Below, piece by piece: positions 5,762 to 26,158 of a DNA stretch of 64,000 nt. Location: NCBI GenBank assembly GCA_903859715.1, contig CAIONS010000027.1, positions 1 to 64,000 on the forward strand, written 5' to 3'. Each line of letters begins with the position of its first letter. The stretch's first letter is position 1. Made by a program: the position numbers and the translations under genes. The notes below the pieces were generated by a model. The model was given only the letters and a program-made list of their open reading frames with translations, did not search any database and had not been told where the DNA came from. Source of the DNA: an uncultured Opitutia bacterium (GTDB lineage: Bacteria > Verrucomicrobiota > Verrucomicrobiia > Opitutales > Opitutaceae).

Positions 5762-6643
5762 ATGAATGTCGCTGAAGTCACGGCCAAGGCGAAGGTCCTC
5801 ATTGAGGCGCTGCCCTATATCCAGGATTTCCGGGGCTCCACGTTTGTCGTGAAGTACGGCGGAAGCTTCATGGATGATCCGGATCCGATCGCGCGCGCGC
5901 GCGTTGCCTACGACGTCGCATTCCTCGCGGCCGTCGGGATCAACGTTGTTGTCGTCCACGGTGGCGGCAAGGCCATCACGCGGGCCATGGAGTCGTCCGG
6001 CCTGAAGGCCACGTTCGTCAACGGCATGCGCGTGACGGACGAGGCCACGATCTCCGTCGTGAGGAAGACCCTCGACGAGATCGTCAACAAGGATGTCTGC
6101 GACGCCATTTTCTCGGCGAAGGGTAAGCCGAAGGGCCTGCCGGGCGACACAGTGCTCGTCTGCCAGAAGCTCACCACGGACGACGATGGCAACGCGGTCG
6201 ACCTCGGCTACGTCGGCGACGTGACCGAAGTGAAGGTGAAGCTCATCAAGAAGGAGATTGCCGATGGCTATATCCCGGTGATCTCGCCCGTGGCCGAGGG
6301 GCTCGATGGCAAGCCGTACAACGTGAACGCCGACCTCGTTGCGGGTCGCGTCGCGAGCGCGCTGCGCGCCCGCCGCTTGGTTTACATGAGCGATGTGCCC
6401 GGCCTGCTGGCGAATCCGGCGGACATGGAGTCGCTCATTTCCACGCTCAAGATCAGCCAGATCGACGACCTGAAAAAGAAAGGCGTGATCGACAAGGGCA
6501 TGCGCCCGAAGGTGCTCAGCGCCATGCGCGCGCTGCAGGAAGGCGTGCAGCGCGTCCATTTCATCGACGGCCGCCTGCCGCACAGCCTGCTGCTCGAGAT
6601 CTTCACCGACCGAGGCATCGGGACGGAAATCGTCCAGGGCTGA
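5762..6643 (+). CDS. argB: Acetylglutamate kinase
   Basis: A 293-residue amino-acid kinase with KYGGS near residue 30, VVVHGGGKA in the substrate loop and NVNADLVAG near the nucleotide site. It phosphorylates N-acetylglutamate with ATP, the second step of arginine synthesis, in the cytoplasm. The length is typical of a full enzyme. It is the first gene of the argB-argD-argF-argG run; the upstream gap to divergent argJ must hold the promoters. Confidence 0.93.
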
Positions 6644-6660
6644 ACTATTTTCGATTCTTG

Positions 6661-6734
6661 ATTCTCGATTTTGGATTGGTTCGCACCCGGTGCGTCCGAC
6701 CGAAGTCGAAGATCAGGAATCCAAAACCGAAAAT
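6661..6734. repeat. AT-rich inverted repeat between argB and argD
   Basis: ATTCTCGATTTTGGATT (6661-6677) faces an imperfect inverted copy (6718-6734), 15 of 17 bases matching. A small CGCACC/GGTGCG hairpin lies in the middle. The right arm ends 2 bp before the argD start, so it may affect argD translation. It is much more AT-rich than its surroundings. Confidence 0.65.
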
Positions 6735-7954: not shown

Positions 7955-8028
7955 TTTCCAGCCAGTTTGGCGGGAAATTTGCTCTCGTGCACCCTCCCGG
8001 CGCCCGTTTAACGTCATCCTTTTCCCAG

Positions 8029-8979
8029 ATGAAGCACTTCCTTAAAGAGACCGACTTCAAGGCCCATGAGCTGGCCGGGGTGTTTGCGCTCGCCCGGGAA
8101 TTCAAGGCCCAGCGGGGTCGCGCCGCCTCGGCGGTGCTTGCCGGGCAGACGTGGGCGCTGCTTTTTTCCAAGTCGAGCACGCGCACGCGGGTTTCCTTTG
8201 AGGTCGGTATCCACGAGCTGGGCGGGAACCCGCTGTTCCTGAACCGGAATGACATTCAGCTCGGCCGGGGCGAGTCCGTCGAAGATACCGCCCGCGTGCT
8301 CTCGCGCTTCGTCCATGGCCTGATCGTGCGCACCTTTGACCACAACGACGTCGTGCGGCTTGCGGCGGCGGCCAGCGTTCCCGTGATCAACGGGCTCACG
8401 GATTTCCTGCATCCCTGCCAGATTTACTCGGACGCCTTCACGGCGGCCGAAATTTGGGCCGGGCCGGGCGGCGATCTGGTCGGATCCCTGAAGGGCCGCA
8501 AGATCGCCTATCTCGGCGACACCTGCTTCAATATGGCCAACTCGTGGATCCTCGGGGCGAGCCTGTTCGGCATGAAGGTCGCGCTGGCTGGTCCGCAGGT
8601 TTATGAGCCGGGTCCGGAGATCAAGGCGCAGCTCGCCGCCGAAGGCCGCGCCGCCGATTACCAGTTTACGACCGATCCCTTTGAAGCCGTAAAGGACGCC
8701 GACATCGTTTACACCGATGTTTGGGCCAGCATGGGCCAGGAAGACGAGGCCGAGGAGCGCATTGCGCAAATGCAGCCCTACGCCGCGACGGCGAAGCTGT
8801 TTGCGGCGGCCAAGCCCGACGCACTCTTCATGCACTGCCTGCCCGCGCACCCAGGCGAGGAAGTTGAGCAGGCGGTCCTCGACAACCCGCGCTCTGTGAT
8901 CTTCGACCAGGCTGAAAACCGCCTCCACATGCAGAAGGCGATTTTGGCGACGCTGAGTCGGCATCACGCGGCCCCATAG
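8029..8979 (+). CDS. argF: Ornithine carbamoyltransferase
   Basis: A 316-residue transcarbamoylase making citrulline from ornithine and carbamoyl phosphate. FSKSSTRTRVSFE is the carbamoyl-phosphate loop, DFLHPCQ follows, and FMHCLPAHPGEEV is the ornithine-binding HCLP motif that separates it from aspartate transcarbamoylase. ATG 8029 gives the standard N-terminus 74 bp after argD. Carbamoyl phosphate would come from the synthase whose large subunit is encoded at 35804. Confidence 0.94.
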   Translation: MKHFLKETDFKAHELAGVFALAREFKAQRGRAASAVLAGQTWALLFSKSSTRTRVSFEVGIHELGGNPLFLNRNDIQLGRGESVEDTARVLSRFVHGLIVRTFDHNDVVRLAAAASVPVINGLTDFLHPCQIYSDAFTAAEIWAGPGGDLVGSLKGRKIAYLGDTCFNMANSWILGASLFGMKVALAGPQVYEPGPEIKAQLAAEGRAADYQFTTDPFEAVKDADIVYTDVWASMGQEDEAEERIAQMQPYAATAKLFAAAKPDALFMHCLPAHPGEEVEQAVLDNPRSVIFDQAENRLHMQKAILATLSRHHAAP

Positions 8980-12319: not shown

Positions 12320-13072
12320 TTACAGGAGGATCTTCGTGACGAAGTAATCGAGCACGAGGATGAGGATGAGGGAGACGACCACGGCGCGCGTGACGGCCGC
12401 GCCGATTTCCCGCGGACCACCGCGGGTGTTGAGGCCGATGTTGCAGCAGACGAGCACGACGCCGAAGCCGAAGGTCTCGGCCTTGATCAGGCCGTTCATC
12501 ACGTCCTGAAACTTCATGTAGCGGCGCAGGACGGAGAAATAGGCCTCGGGCTCAATGCTGATGAAACTGGTGTATTTGGCGACGATCGCGCCGCCGAACC
12601 AGCCGACCAGGTCCGCGATGATGGCCAGCACCGGCACCATCACCAGCACGGCGGCCAGCCGGGGCAGCACGAGCATGCGCGCGGGCGGGATGTTCATCGT
12701 CTCCAAGGCGTCGACCTCCTGGTAGACCTTCATGGAGGCGAGCTCGGCCGTGATCGCCGAGCCGACGCGGCCGGCGAGCAGGATGGCGACCATCACGGGG
12801 CCGAGTTCGCGGGCCATCGACAGGCCGACCAGCGAGCCAATGAACTGCTTCGCCCCGAAATTCTGCATCGAGTAGCCTGCCTGCAGCGCGAGCACGGCGC
12901 CGATGAAGAAGCTCAGGATGGCGACAATGGGCAGCGTGGTGTAACCGATGAGGTAGCACTGCTCGATGAAGCGCGCGCGCTGGCGGGGCAGACTCCCGAT
13001 ATAGGAGAAGGTGCGGACCAGGAGCTGCAACGTGCTGCCGAAGCCCTCGAGGATGGAGTTGAGCTGTTTCAT
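12320..13072 (-). CDS. mlaE: Mla-type ABC transporter permease
   Basis: A 250-residue inner-membrane permease with about five hydrophobic segments and the conserved family stretch ARELGPVMVAILLAGRVGSA with EVDALETM after it. It forms the membrane dimer that works with MlaF and MlaD. The start codon is 1 bp from the stop codon of the upstream WP-repeat gene, suggesting translational coupling. Confidence 0.92.
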   Translation of the reverse strand: MKQLNSILEGFGSTLQLLVRTFSYIGSLPRQRARFIEQCYLIGYTTLPIVAILSFFIGAVLALQAGYSMQNFGAKQFIGSLVGLSMARELGPVMVAILLAGRVGSAITAELASMKVYQEVDALETMNIPPARMLVLPRLAAVLVMVPVLAIIADLVGWFGGAIVAKYTSFISIEPEAYFSVLRRYMKFQDVMNGLIKAETFGFGVVLVCCNIGLNTRGGPREIGAAVTRAVVVSLILILVLDYFVTKILL

Positions 13073-13073
13073 G

Positions 13074-14558
13074 TCAGAGGGACTGGGTGGTAACCGTGTT
13101 CACTTTGGCTTGGAAATCGAACCAGAAGAGACGCCAGCCCGACTGGCCGGGTTCGCGTTTCAATCCGACCACGCCATTGCCCAGTGCAATGCGTCCCTGC
13201 TGCGGGCGGGATTCCACGCTCAGCAGCGGGCCGAGATGAAACTCCTTCTCCTCGTGGGCCCGACGCCAGCTGACGGCGTTCCAGAGGAAAGACCAGCGCT
13301 GGTCATCGGGGCCCCGACGGTCGGAGCGATAAATGGCGAAGAGCGGCGTCCAGGATTCACGCACGTGGTCGTTCTCGGGGAAGAAGATGTCGAAGGGACT
13401 GAACAGCTGGAACTGGCGGCGGCCCGCACCGTTGTCCCACTTGCTGTACAACGGCCAGATATGCGTGCGGTCGGCATGGGCCGCGCGGGGATTCGTCGTG
13501 CTGCGCTGTTCGAGCGACCAGTAAAGCACGTAGAGGAACTGGGTCTTGGTCTGCTCGACGCCGGAATCGGTCCAGGTCGCCTGGCGGATGAGCGGCCACA
13601 TGATCCAAGTCTTGTCCATGCCCTTGATGATGGAGTGGGTATAAAACGGACCCCAGCGGTTGATGTAACTGTCGCCGCGGCCCTGCACGAGAAACGGCCA
13701 GAGGTAGCGGGTCTCATGGTAGCGGGTGGGAAGGGTGCGGTCCGTGTAGCCGAAAAACGGCCAGACAAAATTTTCGTTGATGAACCCCGCGTGGGTTTCG
13801 CGGGTATAGAAGGGAATGAAGCCCACCTGCTCCGTGGGCGGCGTGCCGGCGGGTGCGTCCTCCGGCGGCTGGATCGTATTGTTCCAGCCGAGCGGCCAGA
13901 GATAGAAGAACCGGTGGAAGCGCTCAGGCCTGTCGCGCCAGCCGAACAGCGGCCAGAGCGCGAAACCTTGCTCGGCGCCTTGGGTCATCCGGATAAACGG
14001 CCAGGGTACGGAGGTTGTGACGGCCCCCTGTTTTTCCGTGCGGAAGTAGAGCGGCCAGATCACCCAGGAGAGTTCGTCGAACCCGAAGCGGCCCTTGATC
14101 GTGCCGACGATGGGGAAAAGCGCGCGATACGAGGTCTCGGGCGACCCGGTTTGCCGTGAAAACCAGAAGATCCACAGGTCGAACGCATGGGTCTGGTCCG
14201 CGCGGTACACGGTGACGCCCTGCTTGGGTCCGGCGCGCGTGATAAGATTCAGGATGGTCCATTGGTAGGTGTCGCTGTCCGCCCGGTAGATGAAGATCGG
14301 GTAAAGCACCGTGGCCGACGTGGTCACGCCATTGACGTCGTCGGTCTGCACGTAGAACGGACGGACTCCCTTGATCGTGCCGCTTTCGGGTGCGGGCTTC
14401 TTGAAAATCAGCGGACCCACGGCTTCCCACGACGCGACGTGCCCGGCGACGTCCAGCTGGTCCACCTTTACCGGCCACGCATTGCGTTCTTCGGCTCCGG
14501 CGCGCGCGCAAAGCACGGCCAGACAGCCGAAAAATGCGAGAAGACGGACGGGTTTCAT
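13074..14558 (-). CDS. Secreted WP-repeat protein of unknown function, first gene of the mla operon
   Basis: I do not recognise a named family. The 494-residue product has a signal peptide (MKPVRLLAFFGCLAVLCARA, cleavage near 22) and then about 20 short aromatic segments spaced roughly 15-35 residues apart. Many read W-P-L/F-F/Y: WPL at 168, 202, 221, 321 and 368; WPF at 186, 266 and 287. Variants include YPI, FPI, IPF and GPF. This suggests repeated beta strands, perhaps an outer-membrane barrel or a propeller. It is 1 bp upstream of mlaE, so a role as exported partner of the Mla transporter is inferred, not shown. Confidence 0.75.
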   Translation of the reverse strand: MKPVRLLAFFGCLAVLCARAGAEERNAWPVKVDQLDVAGHVASWEAVGPLIFKKPAPESGTIKGVRPFYVQTDDVNGVTTSATVLYPIFIYRADSDTYQWTILNLITRAGPKQGVTVYRADQTHAFDLWIFWFSRQTGSPETSYRALFPIVGTIKGRFGFDELSWVIWPLYFRTEKQGAVTTSVPWPFIRMTQGAEQGFALWPLFGWRDRPERFHRFFYLWPLGWNNTIQPPEDAPAGTPPTEQVGFIPFYTRETHAGFINENFVWPFFGYTDRTLPTRYHETRYLWPFLVQGRGDSYINRWGPFYTHSIIKGMDKTWIMWPLIRQATWTDSGVEQTKTQFLYVLYWSLEQRSTTNPRAAHADRTHIWPLYSKWDNGAGRRQFQLFSPFDIFFPENDHVRESWTPLFAIYRSDRRGPDDQRWSFLWNAVSWRRAHEEKEFHLGPLLSVESRPQQGRIALGNGVVGLKREPGQSGWRLFWFDFQAKVNTVTTQSL

Positions 14559-14744
14559 GGTAAAAAGACGAAAATCGGGCGACTGGCGTTAGTGCTCGGC
14601 GGATGGGTGACAGTTCCCACCGAACGCGATGATATTTAGCGGCCTACGATTATGTCTTTCCGGCTTTGGCGCAAATTCTATGTTGAATCTGCGGTGCGCT
14701 TGGCCGGCTCCGTCTCGATGAAGAGGCCGCGAGAATGCCGGCCG

Positions 14745-15701
14745 TTACACGACGATGCTCTCGCCCGGGGCCAGGATGCGGAAATTTCCCTCGGTTAGGC
14801 CCGCCGCGATCCGCGCCTGCTCCAGGGCTTTTACCGGATCCTCGCGGCCCTCGTCCGTCAGCTGAAATGCACCCCAATGCATCGCCACGCTCTGGCGTGA
14901 GCCCGAGTCCTGATGCGCCCGCACGGCTTCCTCCGGATTCATATGGGCGGGTTGCATGAACCACCGGGGCTCGTAGGCCCCGATGGGGATGATCGCGAGG
15001 TCGGGCGCGCCGCAGCGTCGGCCGATCTCGCGGAAGAGCGCCTCGTCGTAGCCGGAATCGCCCAGAAACCATACCCGTCGCGCCGCGGTGTGGAGATAAA
15101 AACCGCCCCACAGCCTCCGGTTGGTGCCGCCGATGCTGCGCCGGCTCCAATGCTGGGTCGGGGTGAGCGTCACGGTGAGATCCGGCCAGGGCTGGTACGT
15201 CTGCCACCAATCGAGTTCGATGATTCGCTTCGCCCCGGCCGCCGCCAGCAGCGTGCGGTGCCCCAGCGGCGCGATGAACAGCGGCTGATGCCCATGGGCC
15301 AGCCGGCGCAGCGAGGGCAGGTCGCAATGGTCGTAGTGGTCGTGGCTCAGCAGCACGGCGTCGATGCGCGGCAGCGAATTAAACGTCACGCCCGGCGCAT
15401 GGACCCGCCGCGGCCCGGCCCAGCTGACGGGACTGATGCGGTCTGAAAAAACCGGATCGGTCAGCAAATTACCCTGGGCGGTTTGCAGCAAAAAGGTCGA
15501 ATGATTGACCCAGGTGGCGGCGACGCCGCCGTCCGGCGGGACGGGTGGAAGCGCATGCGGTGTGATCTCCACCCACCGCGGCCAAGGCGTGAGCTGCCGG
15601 TTGAATTGCCAGCGCAGCACGTCCAACAGCCCGGCATTCGCGCGCTGGCCGGGGTTGAAAAAGGTTTTCCCGTTGAAGTGGTCGGTGACCGGCGGTGTCA
15701 T
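14745..15701 (-). CDS. Metallo-beta-lactamase-fold hydrolase, NAPE-PLD-like
   Basis: A 318-residue protein with the metal motif SHDHYDHCD (HxHxDH), a later GDSGYD aspartate and MHWGAF near the C-terminus. ATWVNHSTFLLQ and LTDPVFSDR are typical of the UlaG/NAPE-PLD branch of the fold. Two metal ions, probably zinc, would hydrolyse an ester or phosphodiester bond. The substrate cannot be read from sequence. No signal peptide is seen, so it is probably cytoplasmic. It is divergent from rsmD. Confidence 0.8.
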   Translation of the reverse strand: MTPPVTDHFNGKTFFNPGQRANAGLLDVLRWQFNRQLTPWPRWVEITPHALPPVPPDGGVAATWVNHSTFLLQTAQGNLLTDPVFSDRISPVSWAGPRRVHAPGVTFNSLPRIDAVLLSHDHYDHCDLPSLRRLAHGHQPLFIAPLGHRTLLAAAGAKRIIELDWWQTYQPWPDLTVTLTPTQHWSRRSIGGTNRRLWGGFYLHTAARRVWFLGDSGYDEALFREIGRRCGAPDLAIIPIGAYEPRWFMQPAHMNPEEAVRAHQDSGSRQSVAMHWGAFQLTDEGREDPVKALEQARIAAGLTEGNFRILAPGESIVV

Positions 15702-15762
15702 GGGTCGTGCTTATGAATCCGCTTTCTGGCGCAGAGCAAATTTTCCGTCGGGAGGCAGTATC

Positions 15763-16338
15763 GTGCGCATAAGCGGCGGCGTCGCACGGGGCATTCCGCT
15801 CGTGGCGCCGAAGGGCGATGCTGTCCGCCCGGCGACCGATGGCATGCGGCAGGCGGCCTTCTCCAGTCTGGGCGCCTATGTGGTGGGCGCGCGGTTTATC
15901 GATTTATTTGCCGGGAGCGGAGCCTATGGACTTGAGGCGCTCAGTCGGGGTGCGGTGAGTGGTGTTTTCGTGGAAAAGAACGCCAAGGCGGCCGCGTGCG
16001 TGCGCCAGAATCTGGCCGCCGTGTGCAAGAGCCTGGGCCGGAGCGCCGCCGGTCTGGAAGTGTTCCAGGCGGATGCGCTGACGGTGCCGCTCGATGGTTC
16101 CGTGGCGCCGGATCTCGTGTTCATCGATCCGCCCTACGAAATTATTCCCGAGGTTGCGCCAGTGCTCTTCGCGCGATTGACGCCGGTGCTGGCGTCCAAG
16201 CCCGATGCGCTGGTGGTCTTCGAGATGCCCGGTGAAATCGAGCTCACGCCGGCGGGCTGGACGCTGGTGAAACGGCTCGGCAAGGGCGTGCGCCAGCCGA
16301 CGGTCGCCTTTTTCAGAGCAAACCGAGTTTCGCCCTGA
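15763..16338 (+). CDS. rsmD: 16S rRNA guanine(966)-N2 methyltransferase
   Basis: A 191-residue class I methyltransferase: SAM-binding DLFAGSGAYGLEAL (about 47-60) and the catalytic FIDPPYE motif (Asp122 to Tyr125) expected for N2-guanine methylation. The open frame extends upstream to 15505 over the divergent hydrolase. GTG at 15763 is chosen because VRISGG is the family N-terminus and GGGAGG lies just ahead. Its 3' end overlaps convergent rsmE by 26 bp. Confidence 0.88.
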   Translation: MRISGGVARGIPLVAPKGDAVRPATDGMRQAAFSSLGAYVVGARFIDLFAGSGAYGLEALSRGAVSGVFVEKNAKAAACVRQNLAAVCKSLGRSAAGLEVFQADALTVPLDGSVAPDLVFIDPPYEIIPEVAPVLFARLTPVLASKPDALVVFEMPGEIELTPAGWTLVKRLGKGVRQPTVAFFRANRVSP

Positions 16339-17026
16339 CGACCGCAAGCGCGGCGATCACGGCGGTTTCCGAGCGCAGGACGCGCGGCCCGAGATGGGCG
16401 AAGCCGAAGCTCTGCGCCCGCAGCAGGTCCCGTTCGGCGGCTGACCAGCCCCGCTCGGGTCCGAAGGCGAGCGCCACAGGCGGCGTGATTCCGCCCGCGG
16501 AGAGCGGCTGCGGGGATTCGTAATTGTCGAGGGCGAGACGGGTCGCGGGTAGGGGCAGGGTGGCGATGACTTCGGCCAGGGATTGGCCGTGCGTGAGCGC
16601 CGGCAACCGTGTGTCGAAGGCCTGTTCCGCCCCGGTGATGAGATGGCGGCGCCATTCGCCGGAGGACCAGAGCGTGCTCTGGGCGTAACTGGATTCGCCT
16701 TTTTCCGTGCGGAAAAAATGCAGCGCAGAGACGCCGAGGGACGTGGCTTCGCGCAGGATGTCACGGGCGGTCTGGGGACGCGGCAGGCCGATGAGCAGGG
16801 TGATGGACTCAAGTGGAGGAAGCGCTGCGCCCCACGTGAAGCGAAGCGTGAGCGAGTCCGGCCCGATCTGCACCAGCGTGCCCTGACCGCGAGGGCCGTT
16901 GATCACCCCGGCATCGAATGTCCCGCCGGCCTCCCGGCGCAGGACTCCGAGCAGGTGAACGGCCCGCGGATCGGTCCGCGGCAAGGGCGCGGTCAGCTCG
17001 GCGGGTTCGAAGAGAATGAGGTTCAC
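16313..17026 (-). CDS. rsmE: 16S rRNA uracil(1498)-N3 methyltransferase
   Basis: A 237-residue SPOUT-type protein. An N-terminal PUA-like part (HLLGVLRREAG) is followed by the knot domain with FGPERGWSAAERDLL and LGPRVLRSETAVIAAL, the RsmE signature that forms the SAM-binding trefoil knot. It modifies 16S rRNA in the 30S subunit. It is convergent with, and overlaps, the end of rsmD, so two rRNA methyltransferase genes face each other. Confidence 0.9.
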   Translation of the reverse strand: MNLILFEPAELTAPLPRTDPRAVHLLGVLRREAGGTFDAGVINGPRGQGTLVQIGPDSLTLRFTWGAALPPLESITLLIGLPRPQTARDILREATSLGVSALHFFRTEKGESSYAQSTLWSSGEWRRHLITGAEQAFDTRLPALTHGQSLAEVIATLPLPATRLALDNYESPQPLSAGGITPPVALAFGPERGWSAAERDLLRAQSFGFAHLGPRVLRSETAVIAALAVVRAKLGLL

Positions 17027-17081
17027 GCCGGGAAAAGATTGCGGATTGCGCTAGGGGAGTCGCGCCCTAAGTTGCCACGGC

Positions 17082-17618
17082 ATGAGCTCCCTTGCGACCC
17101 CGGCTGGCAGCGTTTTCAAAAAGATCACCGTCCGCGAAGCGGCCATCCTGCTTTTCATCGCGTGGCTGATTCCCTTCCTGGTCCATCTTGCCCCGTGGGC
17201 TGGCGCACGTCCGCTGGGCGCGTACCTGCTGCCGATGTTCTGGGCGACATTTATTGCGGTGTATTTTTACGGCCTGGGCGCCGGCCTGCTGACCGGGCTG
17301 TTCGCACCGGCGGTCAACCTGCTGGTGACCGGGCTGCCCGCTTGGAAATTTCTCAGCGTGATGAGCCTCGAGCTGGTGATCTTTGCCGTCGTCACGGCCT
17401 GGGCGCTGCGTCTCGCCCCGCGGTTCTGGCTGCTGGCCCCGCTCGGCTATCTCGTGGCCAAGACCGGATCGACGCTGCTGCAATCCGCGACGCTGGTCTT
17501 CGGTGACATCGGCGCGCCGGCGCGTTTTTTTGCCACCTCACTGGCGGGTGGCGCGGTGGGGTTGGCCGTGTTGGCGATCATCAATTTTATGCTGGTGAGG
17601 ATTTACCCGAAACAATGA
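17082..17618 (+). CDS. Small membrane protein resembling ECF-transporter S components
   Basis: A 178-residue protein with about five membrane helices and few charged loops. The stretch LLPMFWATFIAVYFYGLGAG, then LTGLFAPAVN and LLVTGLPAW, resembles the conserved core of ECF vitamin-transporter substrate-binding (S) subunits. No ECF ATPase or T subunit is nearby, so if it is an S component it would use a shared energising module elsewhere. The substrate is unknown. Confidence 0.55.
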   Translation: MSSLATPAGSVFKKITVREAAILLFIAWLIPFLVHLAPWAGARPLGAYLLPMFWATFIAVYFYGLGAGLLTGLFAPAVNLLVTGLPAWKFLSVMSLELVIFAVVTAWALRLAPRFWLLAPLGYLVAKTGSTLLQSATLVFGDIGAPARFFATSLAGGAVGLAVLAIINFMLVRIYPKQ

Positions 17619-17760
17619 GGGCTGGCGGAGCGGTCGCGCCACGTTTTGCCGGATCGCACCCGATGAGAACGAGTGCCGTCCGGATGAGGGAGAATCTCTG
17701 GAATTTTCTCGGTAAATCCGTCCGGTTTGGATCCGGGCGGTGTTTATCAGGATAATCCCC

Positions 17761-20700
17761 ATGCCTGAAGACACCGACCTTCTGAACCAATATGCCCAAA
17801 CGCGGTCCGAGGCTGCGTTTGCCGATTTTGTGCGGCGCCATGTCGACCTCGTCTATTCGGCGGCGATGCGCCGGGTGGGTGGCGACCGTAATCGGGCGCT
17901 CGAGGTCACGCAGGAGGTGTTTCTCTCGGCGGCGCGCCAAGCCCCGCGGCTGGCACGGCATCCGGCCCTGGCGGCCTGGCTGCATGTAAGCACGCGCAAC
18001 GCCGCCGCCAACCTGCGCCGCGCCGAGCAGCGCCGGGACCATCACACCCAACAAGCCCAAGCCATGCATGATCTTCAATCCACGCCATCCGCGGCGGCCG
18101 ATTGGACGCGGGTCCGGCCGGTGCTTGATGAAACCCTGGACCGGTTGAACGAGCGCGAGCGGGAGGCTGTCATTCTGCGGTTTTTTTCTGGCCGTTCCTA
18201 TGTCGAGATCGGCGCCGTGCTTTCTCTGACCGAGGATGCCGCGCGCAAGCAGGTCGGGCGGACTTTGGAGAAACTGCACCGGTTGCTCACCCAGCAGGGC
18301 GTGACGTCCAGCGAGCAGGCTTTGGCCACCGTGCTGAGGGAAAATGCCGTATTGGTTGCGCCGGCGGAGGTGGCGGCACTGATCACCCGTCATGCATTGG
18401 TCGGAGCGGGCGCCGGTGGTTCGGCAGCTCTGCTGCATCTGACGAAGGCCACGGCGTTGAAGATAGGCGCGTTGACGGCTCTCGTCGCGGCCGGGGTGGG
18501 ACTCGTGATTTACAGGAAAACCCCGCAACCGGAAACGACACGGCCGAATGTAGCGGCAACACCGGCTCCCGCGACCAAACCTCCCGTTTCCGCCGCGCCA
18601 GCCACCACTATCCCGGTGGCTGTCGCGGTGGACAACACCGTGGATGCGGAGCTGGCGCAGGCACTCGCCTATGACCAAGGTACGAAGACCCGCCGCGACT
18701 CCCGTCTGGCGGCCGAATGGTACCGGAAAGCGGGCGCCCACGGATCCGCCGCCGCGGAATTCCGACTCGGATATCTTTGTGAAGTCGGCGATGGCGTGCC
18801 GCAGAGCTACCAGGAGGCGCGGTCGCATTATGAGCGTGCTGTCGCCTTGGGCCTGCCTGCCGCGAATCTTCGTCTCGGCATCCTGGACCTGGAGGGATGG
18901 GGCGGTCCGCGCGATGTCGGGTCTGCGGTCCGGCGCATCACCCTAGCTGCCGATACGGGCGACCGGCCGGCGCAACGTGTCCTCTCCGGCATGTACTTTG
19001 GCGGCGTGGGGGTGAAGGCGGACCTGCACCAAGCACTGGCCTGGCAAACCCAGGCTGCCCGCGCGGATGATCCCAAGGCTGAAACCGATGTCGGGACCAT
19101 CCTGGGGTTGCTCGACCAGCAAAATGTCAACCTCGCGCGGGAATGGTATCAGCTATCGGCCGAGCAAGACTACGGGAATGGCCTGCTGGCGATGGCCTCA
19201 ACCTTTTTGCGTCCGGGAGCCTCTCCTGAACAGGTTAAGCAGGGGCGCCAATGGCTGGGGCTCGCGGCTGATAATGGCAGCGGCTCCGCGGCATTTTATC
19301 TCGCAGGTCTTGAGTTGCTGGGTTCGCCCTATGCCTCGCAGCCCGATGCTCCGAAGCGGGCGAAGGCATTGCTGGAAAAGGCCCGGGAAGAAGGAGAACA
19401 GCTCGCGGCCGAAGTGCTGGAGCTGGCGGCCTCGCGTCCCCTGGCGGCGGCGTTCCAATATGTGGTGACCGTGCCGCCGGACCAGAGATACTTGGCGAGC
19501 GCCATGGCGGCAGGGGCGCAGGCCAGGCCCGATGCCCACGGCTTTCTTCCCCCGGTGCTGGCCAAGATGGTCTCGCCGGTCTATCCAGCGGTCTTCCGCG
19601 TGACGGGCACGGAGGGCGAGGTTCTGGTTGATTTCGTCGTGGACACCACGGGCCGCCCGCGACGGATCAAGGCGGTCCGGGCGTCGCACCCGGGATTCAG
19701 CGATGCCGCGGTGCTGGCGGTCGAAAACTGGCGCTTCAACCCGGCGCAGATGAAAGGGCATGCGGTGGAGACCCACGTGCAGGTGCCGATCAATTTCAAA
19801 CTTTCCAACGTGGCGAACAGCGCCGATCCGATCCGCTGCGAAATCCAATCAATCCGCTGTGGCAGGGTGTCGGGCTCCATGGTCGATCTCCGGACCGAGG
19901 TCGAACGCCGCTCAGCTCCGGTGGACATGCCGATCGATGCTGACATCACGTTGAAATTGCTGAGCACGGCGCCGCTGGGGGTCCGGGCGTCGCGGGCTGT
20001 AGTGACGACGGCACAGGACGAGACGGGCGCGGACCTGAAGCTGCCGAATCCTTCCGATCTGTACGAAACGTCGGTCGGCATGGTTTCATCCGAGGCATTG
20101 AAAGCCGTTACCCTGCGGCCGCTTTCCATCCGGCTGGGTTTGCCGGCTTCAGATCCGAAAGCGCTGCGTTTACTGGAGGGGCGCGTGGAGTTGGTCATCC
20201 CGGACCTCGATCCGGGTTCCACGATCACAGTGCCCGGGATCCTGGCCACGGCTGGAACGCCGGTGCATGCCGCCGCTTTGACCGAAGAGGAGATCACGCT
20301 GATCATCTATGACCAGCAGGCCGCCGAAAAATACCGCGACGCAAAATTCGGGGAAGGTGGGCCGCAGGATTATGATTCCGGGCCGATGTTCAGCGCGCGG
20401 GCGGGAGCGGCTGCGCTGGGGGATTTGCCGCCGGCGGTGGTGAAGGCGATCGCGCAGCAATTTCAAAAGATGGCGGTGCAGATGAAAGCGAACGAACTGG
20501 CCGTCGGCATTTCCGATCCGCACGGGCATCTGGTGGGGGTTGAGTTCCGCACGAAGGACGGACTGCCGCTGCCGTACGCCCATAATGGCAACTATCACTC
20601 GAGCGGAATGCCGGGAAAGCCGGACCGGAGGTTCGATGTCTATGACCTTCGCGCTCCGATTCCGCCTGATGTGCAGCTGGTGTGTTGGGTCGCGACCAGA

Positions 20701-20772
20701 TCCTCGCTGGTCACGGTGCCGTTTCACTTTACGGACGTTCCTCTTCCTCTGCCTCCGTCCAAGTCCCAATAG
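17761..20772 (+). CDS. Membrane-tethered ECF sigma factor fused to Sel1 repeats and a TonB C-terminal domain
   Basis: A 1003-residue fusion. Residues about 8-95 form sigma region 2 (AFADFVRRHVDLVYSAAMRR, then EVTQEVFLSAAR). Residues about 121-180 form sigma region 4 (LNEREREAVILRFFSGRSYV, then the helix-turn-helix). One membrane helix lies at about 232-251. A Pro/Ala/Thr linker follows, then Sel1-like TPR repeats (about 295-560), a TonB C-terminal domain (about 596-680: SPVYPAVF and later VENWRFNPA), and about 320 unrecognised residues. A cytoplasmic sigma factor is thus tied to a large, presumably periplasmic part. No anti-sigma gene is adjacent, so the tail may replace it. The start at 17761 has AGGA upstream. 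The first 7 codons of the longer frame are unlikely. Confidence 0.8.
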   Translation: MPEDTDLLNQYAQTRSEAAFADFVRRHVDLVYSAAMRRVGGDRNRALEVTQEVFLSAARQAPRLARHPALAAWLHVSTRNAAANLRRAEQRRDHHTQQAQAMHDLQSTPSAAADWTRVRPVLDETLDRLNEREREAVILRFFSGRSYVEIGAVLSLTEDAARKQVGRTLEKLHRLLTQQGVTSSEQALATVLRENAVLVAPAEVAALITRHALVGAGAGGSAALLHLTKATALKIGALTALVAAGVGLVIYRKTPQPETTRPNVAATPAPATKPPVSAAPATTIPVAVAVDNTVDAELAQALAYDQGTKTRRDSRLAAEWYRKAGAHGSAAAEFRLGYLCEVGDGVPQSYQEARSHYERAVALGLPAANLRLGILDLEGWGGPRDVGSAVRRITLAADTGDRPAQRVLSGMYFGGVGVKADLHQALAWQTQAARADDPKAETDVGTILGLLDQQNVNLAREWYQLSAEQDYGNGLLAMASTFLRPGASPEQVKQGRQWLGLAADNGSGSAAFYLAGLELLGSPYASQPDAPKRAKALLEKAREEGEQLAAEVLELAASRPLAAAFQYVVTVPPDQRYLASAMAAGAQARPDAHGFLPPVLAKMVSPVYPAVFRVTGTEGEVLVDFVVDTTGRPRRIKAVRASHPGFSDAAVLAVENWRFNPAQMKGHAVETHVQVPINFKLSNVANSADPIRCEIQSIRCGRVSGSMVDLRTEVERRSAPVDMPIDADITLKLLSTAPLGVRASRAVVTTAQDETGADLKLPNPSDLYETSVGMVSSEALKAVTLRPLSIRLGLPASDPKALRLLEGRVELVIPDLDPGSTITVPGILATAGTPVHAAALTEEEITLIIYDQQAAEKYRDAKFGEGGPQDYDSGPMFSARAGAAALGDLPPAVVKAIAQQFQKMAVQMKANELAVGISDPHGHLVGVEFRTKDGLPLPYAHNGNYHSSGMPGKPDRRFDVYDLRAPIPPDVQLVCWVATRSSLVTVPFHFTDVPLPLPPSKSQ

Positions 20773-20799
20773 GGTATGCCGTGGCTGGTGTGATCCGGG

Positions 20800-22095
20800 T
20801 CAACTCTCCCCGCCCGCCCATTTGGGTTTCTGGCGCAGGTGGTAGAGGCGCTCGCCGGCCTTGGGTACGAGGAGGACGCCTTCCGCTTCCCGGTTCGCGT
20901 AGTCCTGCGGGCTGATCGTGCGCCAGTCGCGATAGCCGAGATTGATTTCGTGGCATTGGGCCTCGGTGAGGCCGGTGGCGAGGGTCACGCGCACGCGCGG
21001 GGTCTCGATGCCGGTGGTCTCGTCATAGGTGCCGATGCCATGGACGTGCGTGGAGTGCGCGAGCGTGCCCCAGGGCTCGTCCTTGAACTTGTCCCACTGC
21101 TTCAGGAAATAATCGCGGCAGTGGTACCCGATGCGGCGGATGTGTTCGCCGTGGGTCAGAGAGATCTCGTGCAGGTGCGGCGCGTAGATGATGAGTTCGC
21201 CGCCGTCGGCGACGACAGGCTCCAGCTTGTACATGCATTTGCCCGCGACCCAGAGCTCGTCGTACATCGGCGGTGCGCAGGAGAGCACGGTGTGGAACGG
21301 CTGGTCCTTGTAGGTGATGTGGAGTTCCTTCGACAGCTCGCTGGCGGAGTCCCATGCCTCCTCGGGCGTCCCGGCGAACAGGCCGGAAAATTTTCCGCCG
21401 TCACCGACCACCGGGCAGAAGCAGAGTTTCGGCACCGTGACCATGGCGCCGGCGCGGTCGACAACTTTCCGGACGGGCGTCCACTTGTTGCCGATGATCA
21501 TCGGGTTGGTGACGACGGCGCCGAGCCAGTGGAAGAAATTCAGGATGTCCGCGCCGCCGACCCCGGGGAACAGGTACTTGTTGCCGCCCGAGAAGCCGAC
21601 GACCTCGTGGGGGAAGACCGGTCCGCAAATGATGACGAGGTCGTACTCAAACAGCCGCCGGTTGACGTGCACGGGCACGTCCATCGCGAACAGCCCGCCC
21701 GAGAGCGCGTGGATTTCCGCGGCGGGAATGACCCCGAGGTCGCGCAGCGCCGCGGGATTGTCCCATTCGTGATTGATGAACTCGACGTCGCGATAAGCGG
21801 AAGTGCGTTCGGCGGCGGTGATCTCAACGCGGGCGTTGATGGCCTCGTCGGACATCGCGGGATGCGTCCCCAGCGCGATCATCACGTCGAACTTTTTCAC
21901 CACGGGGGCGAGCTGGGCATGGAGCGCCTTGAACATCAGCCCGATCGGCGCCGTGCGGGTCCCGTCGGGAATGATGAGGAGCACCCGCTGGTCGCGGCAG
22001 TCCGCGGCCGGGGCCGCGCGCGCGATTAGCGCCGCAGCCTCGGTGGCGGTGAGTTCGGCGCCGGCGGCGGCGGTGAGCTGGTGGGGAGCGGGCAT
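20800..22095 (-). CDS. LarA-family nickel-pincer racemase/epimerase (DUF2088)
   Basis: A 431-residue LarA homologue. Expected cofactor and metal residues are visible: His78 in GTHPAM, His163 in FPHEVVGFSGG, Lys173 in GGNKYLFPGVGG (attachment lysine for the nickel-pincer nucleotide) and His189 in NFFHW. LarA-type enzymes racemise or epimerise 2-hydroxy acids. It follows the IclR gene by 19 bp in a pectin locus, so a sugar-acid (aldonate) 2-epimerase role is more likely than lactate racemisation; this is inference. The cofactor makers larB, larC and larE are not in the window. ATG 22095 is chosen; the longer frame only overlaps iclR. Confidence 0.8.
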   Translation of the reverse strand: MPAPHQLTAAAGAELTATEAAALIARAAPAADCRDQRVLLIIPDGTRTAPIGLMFKALHAQLAPVVKKFDVMIALGTHPAMSDEAINARVEITAAERTSAYRDVEFINHEWDNPAALRDLGVIPAAEIHALSGGLFAMDVPVHVNRRLFEYDLVIICGPVFPHEVVGFSGGNKYLFPGVGGADILNFFHWLGAVVTNPMIIGNKWTPVRKVVDRAGAMVTVPKLCFCPVVGDGGKFSGLFAGTPEEAWDSASELSKELHITYKDQPFHTVLSCAPPMYDELWVAGKCMYKLEPVVADGGELIIYAPHLHEISLTHGEHIRRIGYHCRDYFLKQWDKFKDEPWGTLAHSTHVHGIGTYDETTGIETPRVRVTLATGLTEAQCHEINLGYRDWRTISPQDYANREAEGVLLVPKAGERLYHLRQKPKWAGGES

Positions 22096-22114
22096 GGCGG
22101 CGAGGCGGGAGGGA

Positions 22115-23026
22115 TCAGGGGCGGCTGGCGGTGTGGCCCAGCCGTTCGGATAGCTCGCTGGCGACGGTGCGCACCTTGCGGGCCATCTCGGGAATGCGGT
22201 CCTTGGTGAAGCGCAGCGTGGCGGCGGTGATGCCGATGGCGGCGGCCACCGTGCCGTCGGCGGCGAAGACCGGCGCGGCCAGGCAGCGGACACCCGGGTT
22301 GAACTCCTCATTGTCGAGACTGTAGCCGCGCTTGCGGGTGAGGTCGGCCTCCTTCCGGATCGCGCTGAGCGTCGTGAGCGTCTGCGGCGTGCGCGCCGTC
22401 GGCGCCGCCTGTGCGACCACCTCGGCCAGCCGGGCTTGGTGGAGGTAGGCGAGGAAGACCTTGCCGGTCGACGAGCAGTGGAGCTCCGCCAGAAAACCCG
22501 GGCGCGACGCGGCGCGGAGGGGGTGGGGACTGTCCTGCACCGCGAGGATCAGGGCGCGGTCGTCACAGGGGATCGCCAGGTGCGAGGTCTCGTCCGTGGT
22601 CTCGGTCAGCTGCTGCAGCAGCGGCAGTGCGAGTTCGCGGATCTCGGTGCCGGCGAGGGCGGCGTTGCCCAGCTGGATCAGCACGGGGCCGAGTTCGAAG
22701 CCGCCGCCGGTTTTGCGGGCCAGGCCCTCCAGCGAAAGCGTCGTCATGATCCGAAGCGTTGTCGTGACCGGGATTCGCAGCTCGCGCGCCAGTTCGGCGG
22801 CCTTGAGCCCGTCCGGGTGCCGGCCCAGCAGCTTGAGGATGCGGCAGGCGTTGCGCAGGTTCGGGATCACGTACCGCTCGGCGGTGGCGGATTTCACGGG
22901 CGGGGCGCGGCGGACGGGGGCGGACGGCACGGAGGGCACGGTTGGGATTTTTCGCCGGTTACCAAGTGAATAACGGACGCGCCTCAGCGGCGCGTTTTCT
23001 GGTTGCCTCAGCCTGCCGATGTTCAA
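22115..23026 (-). CDS. IclR-family transcriptional regulator of the pectin locus
   Basis: An up to 303-residue IclR protein. A winged helix lies at about 55-110 (NACRILKLLGRHPDGLKAAE, then TTTLRIMTTL), and a C-terminal ligand-binding domain contains SSTGKVFLAYL, RGYSLDNEEFNPGVRCLAAP and GITAAT. The first 40-odd residues are unlike the family. A GTG start at the VKSATAERYV segment is a plausible alternative to ATG 23026. It is co-transcribed with the LarA-like gene and divergent from kduI. A 16-bp palindrome at 23039-23054 is a candidate operator. A KdgR-like response to a pectin breakdown product is inferred. Confidence 0.88.
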   Translation of the reverse strand: MNIGRLRQPENAPLRRVRYSLGNRRKIPTVPSVPSAPVRRAPPVKSATAERYVIPNLRNACRILKLLGRHPDGLKAAELARELRIPVTTTLRIMTTLSLEGLARKTGGGFELGPVLIQLGNAALAGTEIRELALPLLQQLTETTDETSHLAIPCDDRALILAVQDSPHPLRAASRPGFLAELHCSSTGKVFLAYLHQARLAEVVAQAAPTARTPQTLTTLSAIRKEADLTRKRGYSLDNEEFNPGVRCLAAPVFAADGTVAAAIGITAATLRFTKDRIPEMARKVRTVASELSERLGHTASRP

Positions 23027-23038
23027 ATATGAAATGCA

Positions 23039-23054
23039 AGTTCATTAGTGAACT
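23039..23054. promoter_or_regulatory. Candidate IclR operator in the iclR-kduI divergent region
   Basis: AGTTCA-TTAG-TGAACT is a perfect 6-bp inverted repeat with a 4-bp spacer, 13 bp upstream of the longest iclR start. It lies in a relatively AT-rich patch between the divergent transcripts, as expected for an autoregulating IclR protein. Confidence 0.5.
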
Positions 23055-23275
23055 GATGCTTTCACCCCCGTTTGCCCTCTGGCCTTCGCGCCGGCTCCCG
23101 CCGGTGCGCCGCTTCCGGAGCAGCCGGCGACCGACCCCAGTCCCTCGACCAAGATGAATTGCCCCTCCTCCGGATGGCGCCCGCCCGGTGCCAGCCCTTT
23201 GCCCGTCCGCGCCGGCTTTCGCCGCCTGGTCCGTTTCTTCCCGCGCGCCGCGTTCGTCCCGGTCTCGCGGTCGAA

Positions 23276-23299
23276 CCGGCCGGACTCGAAGCCGGCCGG
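23276..23299 (+). promoter_or_regulatory. GC hairpin just before the kduI start codon
   Basis: CCGGCCGG (23276-23283) pairs with CCGGCCGG (23292-23299) around ACTCGAAG, ending 9 bp before the kduI ATG. No Shine-Dalgarno is apparent, so the structure could limit initiation; function is unproven. Confidence 0.35.
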
Positions 23300-23308
23300 C
23301 CTTTCATC

Positions 23309-24139
23309 ATGAAACTGCACGACAGCCTTTATCCGGCAATGGCCACGGCCTTTGCAACGGACGACCTGCGGAAGGAATTTCTCATTGCCGGATTGTTCCG
23401 GCCGGACTCGGCGGAATTTCACTACTGGGACACCGACCGCACCGTGCTCGGCGGCGTCCTGCCTCTGTCGCAGGAGGTGCCATTGCCCAGCCCGACGGAG
23501 CTGCGCAGCGCCCATTTCCTGGAGCGGCGCGAAGCCGGCGTGGTCAACCTGGGCGGACCCGGGTTCATCCGCGTCGACGGTATCGAGCACCGCCTCGAGC
23601 CGCTGGATGCGCTCTACCTGGGTCGGGGCGCGAAGGATGTCGTCTTCGGCTCGCAGGGCACTGGCCAGCCGGCGCGCTTCTGGCTGCTCAGCTATCCGGC
23701 CCATGTGGCCTACCCGACACGGCACGTCGCTTTCCGTGATGTGGCTGGGGCGCGGCTCGGCCAGCGGGAAAGCGCCAACGAGCGCACGCTCTACAAGCTC
23801 ATCCACCCCGGCGCTTTTCCGACCTGCCAGGTGGTCATGGGTGTCACCCGACTCGAGCCCGGCAGCGTCTGGAACACCATGCCACCCCACACGCACCTGC
23901 GCCGTTCGGAGATCTACCTGTACTTCAACCTGCCGCCCGGCCAGGTGGTCTTCCATTTCATGGGTCGGCCCCAGGAAACACGGCATCTCATCGTGCGCGA
24001 AGGCGAGGCCGTGCTCTCGCCGCCGTGGTCGATCCACTGTGGCGCCGGCACGTCGAACTACAGCTTTGTCTGGGGCATGGGCGGCGAGAACCAGGAGTTC
24101 ACCGACATGGATCCCGCGCCGCTCGCGGCGCTGCGCTGA
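23309..24139 (+). CDS. kduI: 5-dehydro-4-deoxy-D-glucuronate isomerase
   Basis: A 276-residue KduI protein. The zinc ligands fit His194 and His196 in PPHTHLRRSEIYLYF, Glu201 in the same segment, and His243 in WSIHCGAG. It isomerises 5-keto-4-deoxyuronate, the product of unsaturated galacturonate from pectin, to 2,5-diketo-3-deoxygluconate in the cytoplasm. It is the first gene of the plus-strand pectin operon, 6 bp before kduD. ATG 23309 matches the family start; a long in-frame extension upstream is intergenic. Confidence 0.93.
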   Translation: MKLHDSLYPAMATAFATDDLRKEFLIAGLFRPDSAEFHYWDTDRTVLGGVLPLSQEVPLPSPTELRSAHFLERREAGVVNLGGPGFIRVDGIEHRLEPLDALYLGRGAKDVVFGSQGTGQPARFWLLSYPAHVAYPTRHVAFRDVAGARLGQRESANERTLYKLIHPGAFPTCQVVMGVTRLEPGSVWNTMPPHTHLRRSEIYLYFNLPPGQVVFHFMGRPQETRHLIVREGEAVLSPPWSIHCGAGTSNYSFVWGMGGENQEFTDMDPAPLAALR

Positions 24140-24145
24140 CCGCCC

Positions 24146-24913
24146 ATGGCTGCCGTGCTCGAGACCTTCCGGCTGAATGGCAGGGTGGCGATCGTCACCG
24201 GCGCCTCGCGCGGGCTCGGCGCGGACATGGCGGTCGCGCTGGCGGAAGCCGGGGCCGATGTCGCCTTCGTCGCGCGTGGCGACACCTCTGCCGTCACCCG
24301 CGCGGTCACGAAGCTCGGCCGGCGCAGCTGCACCGTCGCCATCGATGTCGGCGCGGGGGCCGCGGCCGAGCACATCCTGCAGACCGTCATGGCCCGGCTG
24401 GGTCCGCCCGACATCCTGGTGAACAATGCCGGCATCATCCGCCGCGCGGCGTTCCTCGAGTTTACCGGGGCCGACTGGGATGATGTCATGAACGTGAACC
24501 TCCGCGCGGCGTTCCAGCTGAGCCAGCGTTTCGCGGTCGCGCTGGTGGCGCGAAAGGCCCCGGGCAAAATCATCAACACCGCCTCGCTGCTCTCGTTCCA
24601 GGGCGGACTCCGGGTCGCCTCCTATGCCGCCGCGAAGAGCGGGCTGGCCGGCCTGACCCGCGCGATGGCCAACGAGCTCGCCCCGCTTGGCATCAATGTG
24701 AACGCGATTGTGCCCGGCTACATGGCGACCGACAACACCGCGGCGCTGCGCGCCGACCCGATTCGCCAGCGCGCCATCCTTGAGCGCATCCCGGCGGACC
24801 GCTGGGGTGAGCCGGCCGATCTGAAAGGGGCCGTTGTCTTTCTCGCCTCCGCGGCCTCAGACTATGTCCACGGCATTACCCTGCCGGTCGATGGCGGCTG
24901 GCTTGCCCGCTAA
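24146..24913 (+). CDS. kduD: 2-dehydro-3-deoxy-D-gluconate 5-dehydrogenase
   Basis: A 255-residue classical SDR. VTGASRGLGADMA is the NAD-binding loop, NNAGI follows, SYAAAKSG holds the catalytic Tyr and Lys, and VNAIVPGYMATDNT is typical of KduD. It reduces 2,5-diketo-3-deoxygluconate to KDG after KduI. KDG would then need a kinase and aldolase encoded elsewhere. It follows kduI by 6 bp and precedes the DUF4861 gene by 12 bp. Confidence 0.9.
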   Translation: MAAVLETFRLNGRVAIVTGASRGLGADMAVALAEAGADVAFVARGDTSAVTRAVTKLGRRSCTVAIDVGAGAAAEHILQTVMARLGPPDILVNNAGIIRRAAFLEFTGADWDDVMNVNLRAAFQLSQRFAVALVARKAPGKIINTASLLSFQGGLRVASYAAAKSGLAGLTRAMANELAPLGINVNAIVPGYMATDNTAALRADPIRQRAILERIPADRWGEPADLKGAVVFLASAASDYVHGITLPVDGGWLAR

Positions 24914-24925
24914 CCCCGATTCCCC

Positions 24926-26158
24926 ATGAAACCCCTCCGTTTCGCCATCTTGCTTGTGGCGGCCGGCCTCCTGTCGCGGTTGCCCGCGGCCGAGCGGCTC
25001 ACCGTCACGGTCACGCACACGCTGAGCATCGCGCGCCCGGCTGAGACCATCAGTGTGCCATGGTCCCGCGTCGCGGAAATCCTGCCCGGTGCGCAGATCT
25101 ACCATCTCGAGGTCAGGGACGCCGCCGGTCACGTGTTGCCCTATCAGGTCACCAATCTCGCGCCGACCCTCAAGGACCCCACCGGCCGGGGCGCGGCGTA
25201 TGGTGAGCTCCTTTTCCAGCATGATTTTGCGGCGGGAGAAAAATCCGCCGGATTCACGATCGAGAAGATTGCCGCGATCACGCCACCGTTCCCCGTCCAG
25301 GCGTTCGCCCGCTATGTGCCCGAGCGGCTCGATGATTTTGCGTGGGAAAACGACAGGATCGCCCATCGCATCTACGGGCCCGGCCTCGCTGCCCCCGCGC
25401 CCCCCGGCTCGGGCAAGGAAGTGCTCGTCTCCAGCGGCATCGACGTCTGGTGCAAGCGCGTCAGCTATCCCATCGTCGACCGCTGGTACAACAAGGGCCA
25501 TAATTTCTTTCACAAGTACGACCTCAGCGAGGGCATGGACATGTACAACGTCGGCCAAACCCGCGGGTGCGGCGGCACGGGCATCTGGGACGGCCACCGG
25601 CTGTTCGTCGGCCGCAACTATCAAACGTGGAAGGTCCTCGCGAACGGCCCGATCCGCGCGGTGTTTGAACTCACCTACGATGCCTGGGACGCGAACGGTC
25701 TGAAGGTGGCCGAGACGAAGCGCTTCACCATCGATGCCGGGCATAACCTCGACCAGATGGAAAGCACGTTCACGGTGACCGGGGGCTCCGCCAAGGAGCT
25801 GACGGTCGCCATCGGCCTGGACAAAAGCCCGACGGACAAGGGTCAGGATCCGAAAATTGATTTCACGACCGTGGCGGCCGATGGCTCACTCGCGCAGTGG
25901 ATCGTGCAAACGACCCACGGCTCGCTCGGCACGGCCGCCATCGTGTCCGGCGACGCCTTCCGCGGCTATGCCGAGGACGAGCACAACCAGCTGGTGCTGG
26001 CGAAGGTCACCCCCGGCCAGCCTTTGCGCTATTGCATTGGGGCCGGCTGGTCGCTGGCCGGCGAATTCACCACCGAGCAGACCTGGACCGATTACGTCGC
26101 GGCCTGTGCTGCGCGCATGCGTTCGCCGGTCACGGTCACGGTCGGAACTGTCCCCTGA
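24926..26158 (+). CDS. DUF4861 family exported protein
   Basis: A 410-residue protein with a signal peptide (about 1-22, MKPLRFAILLVAAGLLSRLP then AAA) and a beta-rich body with GMDMYNVGQTRGCGG, HRLFVGRNYQTWKVL and GHNLDQMESTF, matching the DUF4861 family. Members are common in pectin and uronate loci of Bacteroidota and Verrucomicrobiota, so a role on oligogalacturonides in the periplasm is inferred; the reaction is not known to me. Its stop overlaps the start of the next gene by one base (TGATG). Confidence 0.75.
   Translation: MKPLRFAILLVAAGLLSRLPAAERLTVTVTHTLSIARPAETISVPWSRVAEILPGAQIYHLEVRDAAGHVLPYQVTNLAPTLKDPTGRGAAYGELLFQHDFAAGEKSAGFTIEKIAAITPPFPVQAFARYVPERLDDFAWENDRIAHRIYGPGLAAPAPPGSGKEVLVSSGIDVWCKRVSYPIVDRWYNKGHNFFHKYDLSEGMDMYNVGQTRGCGGTGIWDGHRLFVGRNYQTWKVLANGPIRAVFELTYDAWDANGLKVAETKRFTIDAGHNLDQMESTFTVTGGSAKELTVAIGLDKSPTDKGQDPKIDFTTVAADGSLAQWIVQTTHGSLGTAAIVSGDAFRGYAEDEHNQLVLAKVTPGQPLRYCIGAGWSLAGEFTTEQTWTDYVAACAARMRSPVTVTVGTVP

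Follow-up and report, generated by a model that had tools for sequence, protein, structure and literature searches.

The 64,000-nucleotide stretch of DNA analyzed here (the window; positions 1 to 64,000, forward strand, of contig CAIONS010000027.1 in assembly GCA_903859715.1, from an uncultured Opitutia bacterium of the family Opitutaceae) carries a gene whose product, P0001, combines an extracytoplasmic function (ECF) sigma factor, a membrane helix, Sel1 repeats and a TonB C-terminal (TonB_C) domain in a single intact frame of 1003 aa (Table 1). We read P0001, with a probability of about 0.6, as a self-activating, membrane-tethered ECF sigma factor that is controlled by its periplasmic part. 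A preliminary description, made from the letters alone, had proposed this order of domains; Pfam, NCBIfam and a hydrophobicity scan bear it out, and hidden Markov model searches place both sigma region 4 and TonB_C over the Pfam cut-offs. TIGR02937 (sigma70-ECF, 4.4e-21) is the sole sigma model over its cut-off among the best 25 of 97 NCBIfam models; having sigma regions 2 and 4 and no other sigma region, P0001 is an ECF (sigma-70 group 4) protein. The most hydrophobic 19-residue window has a Kyte-Doolittle (KD) value of 2.11, and the Sel1 block counts four stretches at the lax Pfam limit of E 1. The end of about 320 residues, described earlier as unrecognized, is still without a name: Pfam gives nothing above cut-off for residues 690-1003, and single-sequence structure predictions (mean predicted local distance difference test score, pLDDT, of 39.1 for residues 605-1003 and 57.3 for residues 1-268) were not used for fold searches.

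Table 1. Features of P0001 and of the region before its start codon (positions of the window)
Feature	Residues	Positions	Strand	Basis or remark
Promoter-like motif		17711..17754	+	Position weight matrix trained without P0001, score 14.4
Motif, -35 part		about 17718-17728	+	
Motif, presumed -34 base (C)		17722	+	Covariation and sigmaE contacts
Motif, -10 part		about 17743-17747	+	
Coding sequence of P0001		17761..20772	+	ECF sigma, linker, membrane helix, Pro-rich linker, Sel1 repeats, TonB_C, end region
Sigma-70 region 2	23-92	17827..18036	+	Pfam PF04542, 4.9e-9, over cut-off
Sigma-70 region 4 with recognition-helix residues D159 and K163	122-172	18124..18276	+	Pfam PF08281 (Sigma70_r4_2), 1.3e-9, over cut-off
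Conserved linker, sigma region 4 to helix	180-231	18298..18453	+	Alignment A4; candidate built-in inhibitory segment
Membrane helix	232-250	18454..18510	+	Kyte-Doolittle scan of the 62 rows of alignment A1
Pro/Ala-rich linker	251-290	18511..18630	+	Sequence
Sel1-repeat block	about 283-595	18607..19545	+	Pfam PF08238, 5.3e-23, over cut-off
TonB_C domain	605-681	19573..19803	+	Pfam PF03544, 9e-17, over cut-off; PDB TonB2 2k9k_A, 1.2e-6
End region	688-1003 (316 aa)	19822..20769	+	No Pfam model; common to signal-peptide proteins

That so unusual a fusion is an artefact of assembly or binning is most improbable, even though the full architecture is absent from the other genomes searched with the whole protein and the assembly is in 71 contigs: the family promoter described below stands at the 5' end, the gene sits on a 120.5-kb contig, there is no stop, and codon usage modeled on the sigma genes of the family ranks the coding frame first of six in all 12 blocks (84 codons each except the last, of 80, in which its lead is narrow), so that no frame break shows. 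An in-frame GTG at 17740, upstream of the ATG, falls within the promoter motif, which favors the ATG at 17761 as the start.

As judged by sequence comparison, P0001 is a member of a wider family in which a shared sigma part, linker and helix carry interchangeable C-termini. Many proteins in 57 genomes (its own included) match the sigma part and helix of P0001 and not its C-terminus, and a profile of sigma part, linker and helix (E 1e-25) matches at least 43 genomes out of 387 sampled from the phylum; the true number may be higher, since no more than six candidates were scored in each. P0001 and 61 others make up alignment A1 (62 of 65 rows, with two cut-off genes and L129:409-2559 excluded); alignment A4 (60 rows) is A1 minus L135 and L161. 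Pfam finds sigma region 4 in all 62 aligned proteins, region 2 in 60 and TonB_C in 13, P0001 among them; the other C-terminal domains are ExbD (two) and serpin, T2SSG, SLBB, NfeD, Sel1 and two domains of unknown function (one each). Single Pfam scans confirmed the serpin, T2SSG and SLBB cases and gave three proteins ExbD-like matches that stay below the Pfam cut-off. In 62/62 rows there is a hydrophobic window with a KD value of at least 1.4 (L131 passes through its linker stretch only), and G180 and P201 of the linker between sigma region 4 and the helix are invariant across the 60 rows of A4, which P0001 fits. Among 78 loci related to P0001 mainly via the Sel1 part, no frame matches the sigma-linker-helix profile (E 1e-12) or the end region (E 0.1). 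We saw no description of this family in the literature searched, and an unnamed group in ECF classification work may already contain it.

Two kinds of member deserve mention in their own right. A serpin (2.6e-94) is fused via the helix to the sigma factor in L159:4779-6815, and a 2237-aa member (L196:1353-8066) bears alpha-2-macroglobulin domains, with L197:1210-7965 alike by eye. Since both are protease-inhibitor folds, these fusions suggest protease sensing. Genes of the family also occur in clusters and tandem arrays (at L126, L127, L128 and L129), five of them consecutive at L128.

The family genes share a promoter-like motif directly before the start codon. In 92 upstream regions (start codons picked by a codon-score caller) spaced words reached a z of 17.4, against 5.2-7.1 in five shuffled sets; that set included P0001 twice, and the position weight matrix was later retrained without P0001, on a seed pattern from the first look. 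The motif is 44 bp long and ungapped: TTTTTTGTnCGGTTTt-(about 7)-GGcGGcnGyTA, followed by a Shine-Dalgarno (SD)-like end. At a score of at least 13 it precedes 53 of 86 distinct family genes; among the 356 other genes in these loci it precedes just 1, which itself sits directly upstream of a family gene; in 52 of the 53 scoring genes the motif ends 0-15 bp from the start codon. The site before P0001 is the best in the window on both strands, with a runner-up at 8.8. If column 11 of the motif corresponds to base -34, transcription would start at about 17756, about 5 nt before the ATG, and such a nearly leaderless start would be unusual.

The bases of this motif covary with the residues expected to read them. 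In a set of 57 gene-promoter pairs, a C in column 11 goes with K163 (14/15), a G with N159 and M163 (19/21) and a T with D159 (19/20), while the single A pairs with N159 and A163; P0001 has C, D159 and K163. Residues 159 and 163 predict the column-11 base best among 14,878 residue pairs under leave-one-out, giving 49 of 57 correct as against 44 from the nearest relative and 20 from the majority base, and they are correct in 9 of the 13 cases in which the nearest relative fails. All five other genes that share the 159/163 residues of P0001 also have its base. At the other end of the motif, in the -10 part, column 30 covaries with sigma2 residue 84, column 31 with residue 83 and column 33 with residue 86. 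Counting sigma4/-35 and sigma2/-10 pairs as expected contacts, the top 10 pairs held seven among 55 representatives (0.45 by chance; one in a swapped control, chance 0.40) and five among 35 representatives of less than 60% identity (0.43; none in the swapped control, 0.39). In Escherichia coli sigmaE, base -34 is described as being contacted by S172 and T169, with G168, in the relevant passages of PMC6713349; in our alignment with SigE a shared GTVRSR stretch aligns the S to K163 and the G to D159. The covariation thus points to promoter recognition by sigma2 and sigma4. Because P0001 has an own-type promoter, and because motif bases covary with sigma4 and sigma2, its sigma domains look functional and self-recognizing.

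Two other explanations are answered at this point. One takes the upstream motif for something other than a promoter, perhaps a translational operator, a cassette-recombination site or a further kind of mRNA or DNA element; the nearly fixed, very short distance to the start codon, the overlap with the SD-like end and the tandem arrays of some family genes would suit it, but one particular base changes together with the recognition helix of sigma4, and bases of the -10 part with residues of sigma2, as they would in a promoter, and we consider this account quite unlikely. Equally little credence goes to the proposal that the sigma part is a mere membrane-targeting device or evolutionary leftover on a protein whose work is in the envelope, as an exported Sel1/TonB_C protein: the outer half does have homologues without any sigma part, yet P0001 has retained its own-type promoter, sigma domains over the cut-off and a promoter base shared with the five genes of like residues.

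How far the promoter reaches is a separate question. Searched with up to two mismatches, the P0001 genome gave 18 matches (44 for a reversed control pattern), and only the perfect site of P0001 itself had fewer than two mismatches, so that no further target is visible there, with the limit that few-mismatch patterns can miss weaker ones. Eight relatives gave 32 matches against 17 for the control, with none in three of the eight genomes though these hold family genes. By coordinates or by reading, 24 of the 32 precede family sigma genes, one precedes a TonB_C-like lipoprotein gene adjoining a family sigma gene, and six score below 10, three of these apparently inside a ribosomal protein gene. 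These matches fit a self-driving switch. It is possible, and we put it forward tentatively, that each family sigma has a promoter nearly private to it, distinguished mainly by the one -34 base and driving only its own gene, so that the family would consist of one-gene or one-operon positive-feedback switches whose output is the exported domain (TonB_C, serpin, alpha-2-macroglobulin and others); in P0001 the loop would then be closed within one protein, without the usual partner. The last of the 32, a strong site (19.6), has no sigma gene behind it (G007:C61:46926-46956, L268:922); the next called gene there, of 270 aa, lies about 300 bp on.

The outer half of P0001 has relatives of its own. 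A 451-aa protein (L017:1465-2820) is 43-45% identical to it over the Sel1 and TonB_C block, and a 466-aa protein from the same genus (L025:1459-2859) is 40% identical over TonB_C and the end region; L125 gives a weaker end-region match. Both of the former start with a signal peptide (by eye) and neither has a sigma part. Because these matching stand-alone proteins carry signal peptides, the Sel1, TonB_C and end regions of P0001 are very probably exported, which supports a periplasmic outer half. The end region is rare: 2 genomes out of 273 in the order have it, and a profile finds it in 4 of 387 in the phylum (the genome of P0001 counted both times); the genome with the 466-aa protein surfaced only in the 57-genome search and not in these two. 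In a tree of the sigma parts (60 rows, 14 of them labelled TonB_C, including P0001 and the truncated L134) the nearest members to P0001 are without TonB_C and the TonB_C state changes at least seven times; this tree is poorly resolved, good support being limited to 11 of its 57 inner branches, none of which fixes the place of P0001. A quick TonB_C tree of 40 rows is poorly resolved, and a single clade of the 17 sigma-fused rows is weakly rejected (approximately unbiased test, p-AU 0.027). P0001 probably arose by the joining of a family sigma-anchor to Sel1-TonB_C and end modules from separate exported proteins.

P0001 also departs from its TonB_C-bearing relatives in what follows it. Of 15 TonB_C family genes for which downstream sequence is available, 13 have a same-strand downstream gene encoding an N-terminal helix and a coiled-coil-like part, and the other two have a downstream gene similar by eye; such a partner is seen behind 12 of the 72 remaining family genes and behind 4 of 360 control genes, under a rule tuned after examples had been seen (with an earlier, looser rule the figures were 35 of 81 for sigma genes and 44 of 347 for controls). 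This partner is absent downstream of P0001, where the next gene (20800-22095, minus strand) is convergent, and the coiled-coil stalk of the TonB_C relatives is replaced in P0001 by the Pro-rich linker and Sel1 repeats. Near sigma-helix-TonB_C genes there are also small genes for lipoprotein-like products that match TonB_C weakly, at L126 (about 7611-8166; family motif, 19.9), L131 (about 6036-6701; weak motif, 11.7) and L138 (3311-3880; no motif).

Taken together, these results are consistent with a simple mechanism. The sigma part would be cytoplasmic, with the linker and helix holding it in place, and the Sel1, TonB_C and end regions would face the periplasm; the periplasmic part may keep the sigma inactive, or position it, until a ligand or partner is met. 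Release of the sigma would follow, for which regulated intramembrane proteolysis of the IutY kind (discussed below) is the simplest route, and the freed sigma would drive its own gene, giving a positive loop. The one-protein signal path of the preliminary description stands insofar as the sigma and the exported part share a single polypeptide and the sigma part of the family is under functional constraint; its further idea, a necessary contact between the TonB-like domain and a partner in the outer membrane, is unsupported as stated, since the same anchor bears unrelated domains in relatives.

Several points weigh against the tethered, self-activating sigma factor. The domain order, the family, the signal peptides of outer-half homologues, the own-type promoter and the covariation are computed; inhibition by the tether and the release step are what we infer, and Pfam sees no anti-sigma domain in P0001. 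The linker, modeled at low confidence from the single sequence as two short helices, has a pLDDT below 50, and a weaker hydrophobic stretch at residues 196-214 (KD 1.58) permits a two-pass topology with the C-terminus inside. A survey for the same architecture, which the preliminary description had suggested, found no full-length P0001 homologue across the 57 genomes. The motif is absent at score 13 from 33 of the 86 family genes, and the 14.4 of P0001 is close to the low end of the motif-positive scores. As for the covariation, the top 50 pairs of the 35 representatives held nine expected contacts (2.16 by chance) to five in the swapped control (1.93), the top pairs include some that are not expected contacts (column 8 with residue 133, 28 with 165, 14 with 80), the column classes were fixed after the first covariation result had been seen, and a tree-aware test on well-supported branches left one or two independent pairs, too few for any power, although nearly every pairing agreed.

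The alternative that survives best is cell-surface signaling, in which TonB_C would bind the TonB box of an outer-membrane receptor and occupancy would be relayed via the helix to the sigma, so that a single chain would do the work of FecI, FecR and TonB. TonB_C is well above cut-off, matches solved TonB domains and is the commonest C-terminal Pfam domain among the 62 aligned proteins; the genome has 10 matches to receptor barrels, so that contact is possible. No STN domain in the genome reaches the Pfam cut-off, the best match (G000:C56:159833-159976) falling just below it, with 28.0 bits where 28.4 are needed, and lying in an open frame of 1122 aa that may encode a receptor or a secretin. 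On the other hand, none of the 10 barrel matches lies on the contig of P0001, and the genome holds a separate TonB-like protein, adjoining two ExbD genes on other contigs, whose helix carries a His motif that P0001 lacks. TonB_C is also repeated two to five times in a row elsewhere; of four such repeat proteins, three start with a signal peptide as judged by eye. Paralogues carry unrelated domains on the same anchor. On balance we regard cell-surface signaling as improbable. The repeat proteins are L165:3815-5476, L044:1438-2526, L042:784-2640 and, in the P0001 genome itself, L007:1024-1767, the signal peptides being those of L165, L044 and L007.

The neighborhood of P0001 fits the earlier remark that no anti-sigma gene is near: none was recognized among the genes called at 12320-28734, which were judged by eye, with only 17082-17618 scanned with Pfam. 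That gene, on the same strand, encodes a 178-aa membrane protein without a Pfam match at E 0.1 and ends 142 bp upstream of P0001. The other neighbors include what we take to be a pair of rRNA-methyltransferase-like genes and, at 20800-28734, presumed LarA-like, IclR-like, KduI/KduD-like and pectin-degradation-like genes, possibly a uronate catabolism cluster.

What began as an odd fusion thus becomes a testable family with a tethered sigma, a predicted promoter, a base-to-residue code and interchangeable sensor or effector domains, of which serpin and alpha-2-macroglobulin are unexpected beside a sigma factor. It offers a simple system for studying how a tethered sigma is switched on, as well as candidate orthogonal sigma-promoter pairs for design work in laboratory strains.

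Among known systems, TonB energy transducers have a short N-terminus in the cytoplasm, a membrane helix with a His motif and ExbB/ExbD genes as neighbors; P0001 resembles them in having a helix, a Pro-rich stretch and TonB_C, and differs in its cytoplasmic sigma N-terminus, in a helix without His and in that the ExbD matches of its genome are on other contigs (ExbB was not searched). FecI-FecR-FecA likewise couples a sigma across the membrane to a periplasmic part, but does so with three proteins where P0001 is one, and the best STN match of the P0001 genome is just under cut-off. Closer in build are ECF52 and ECF48/ECF53, which according to passages of PMC5826349 and PMC8999054 also have a sigma, a helix, a Pro-rich stretch and an extracytoplasmic domain; unlike these three groups, P0001 has no zinc-finger anti-sigma domain (Pfam, E 1). 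Those passages describe ECF52 as exclusive to Actinobacteria, and for ECF52 (SCO4117 of Streptomyces) proteolytic release has been proposed (PMC5826349). IutY of Pseudomonas putida (ECF243) combines sigma and anti-sigma in one chain and is released by proteolysis, as described in parts of PMC5411451 and PMC8999054. P0001 differs from IutY in having no FecR-type domain (Pfam, E 1) and no receptor barrel on its contig, and in a periplasmic part made of Sel1, TonB_C and the end region, within a family whose C-termini are interchangeable; what the two appear to share, on those accounts, is a single polypeptide with a cytosolic ECF sigma and a periplasmic part, that is, a signal path encoded by a single gene. 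Tethered sigma factors are thus already known from IutY and ECF52, and P0001 is best placed as a variant within that kind.

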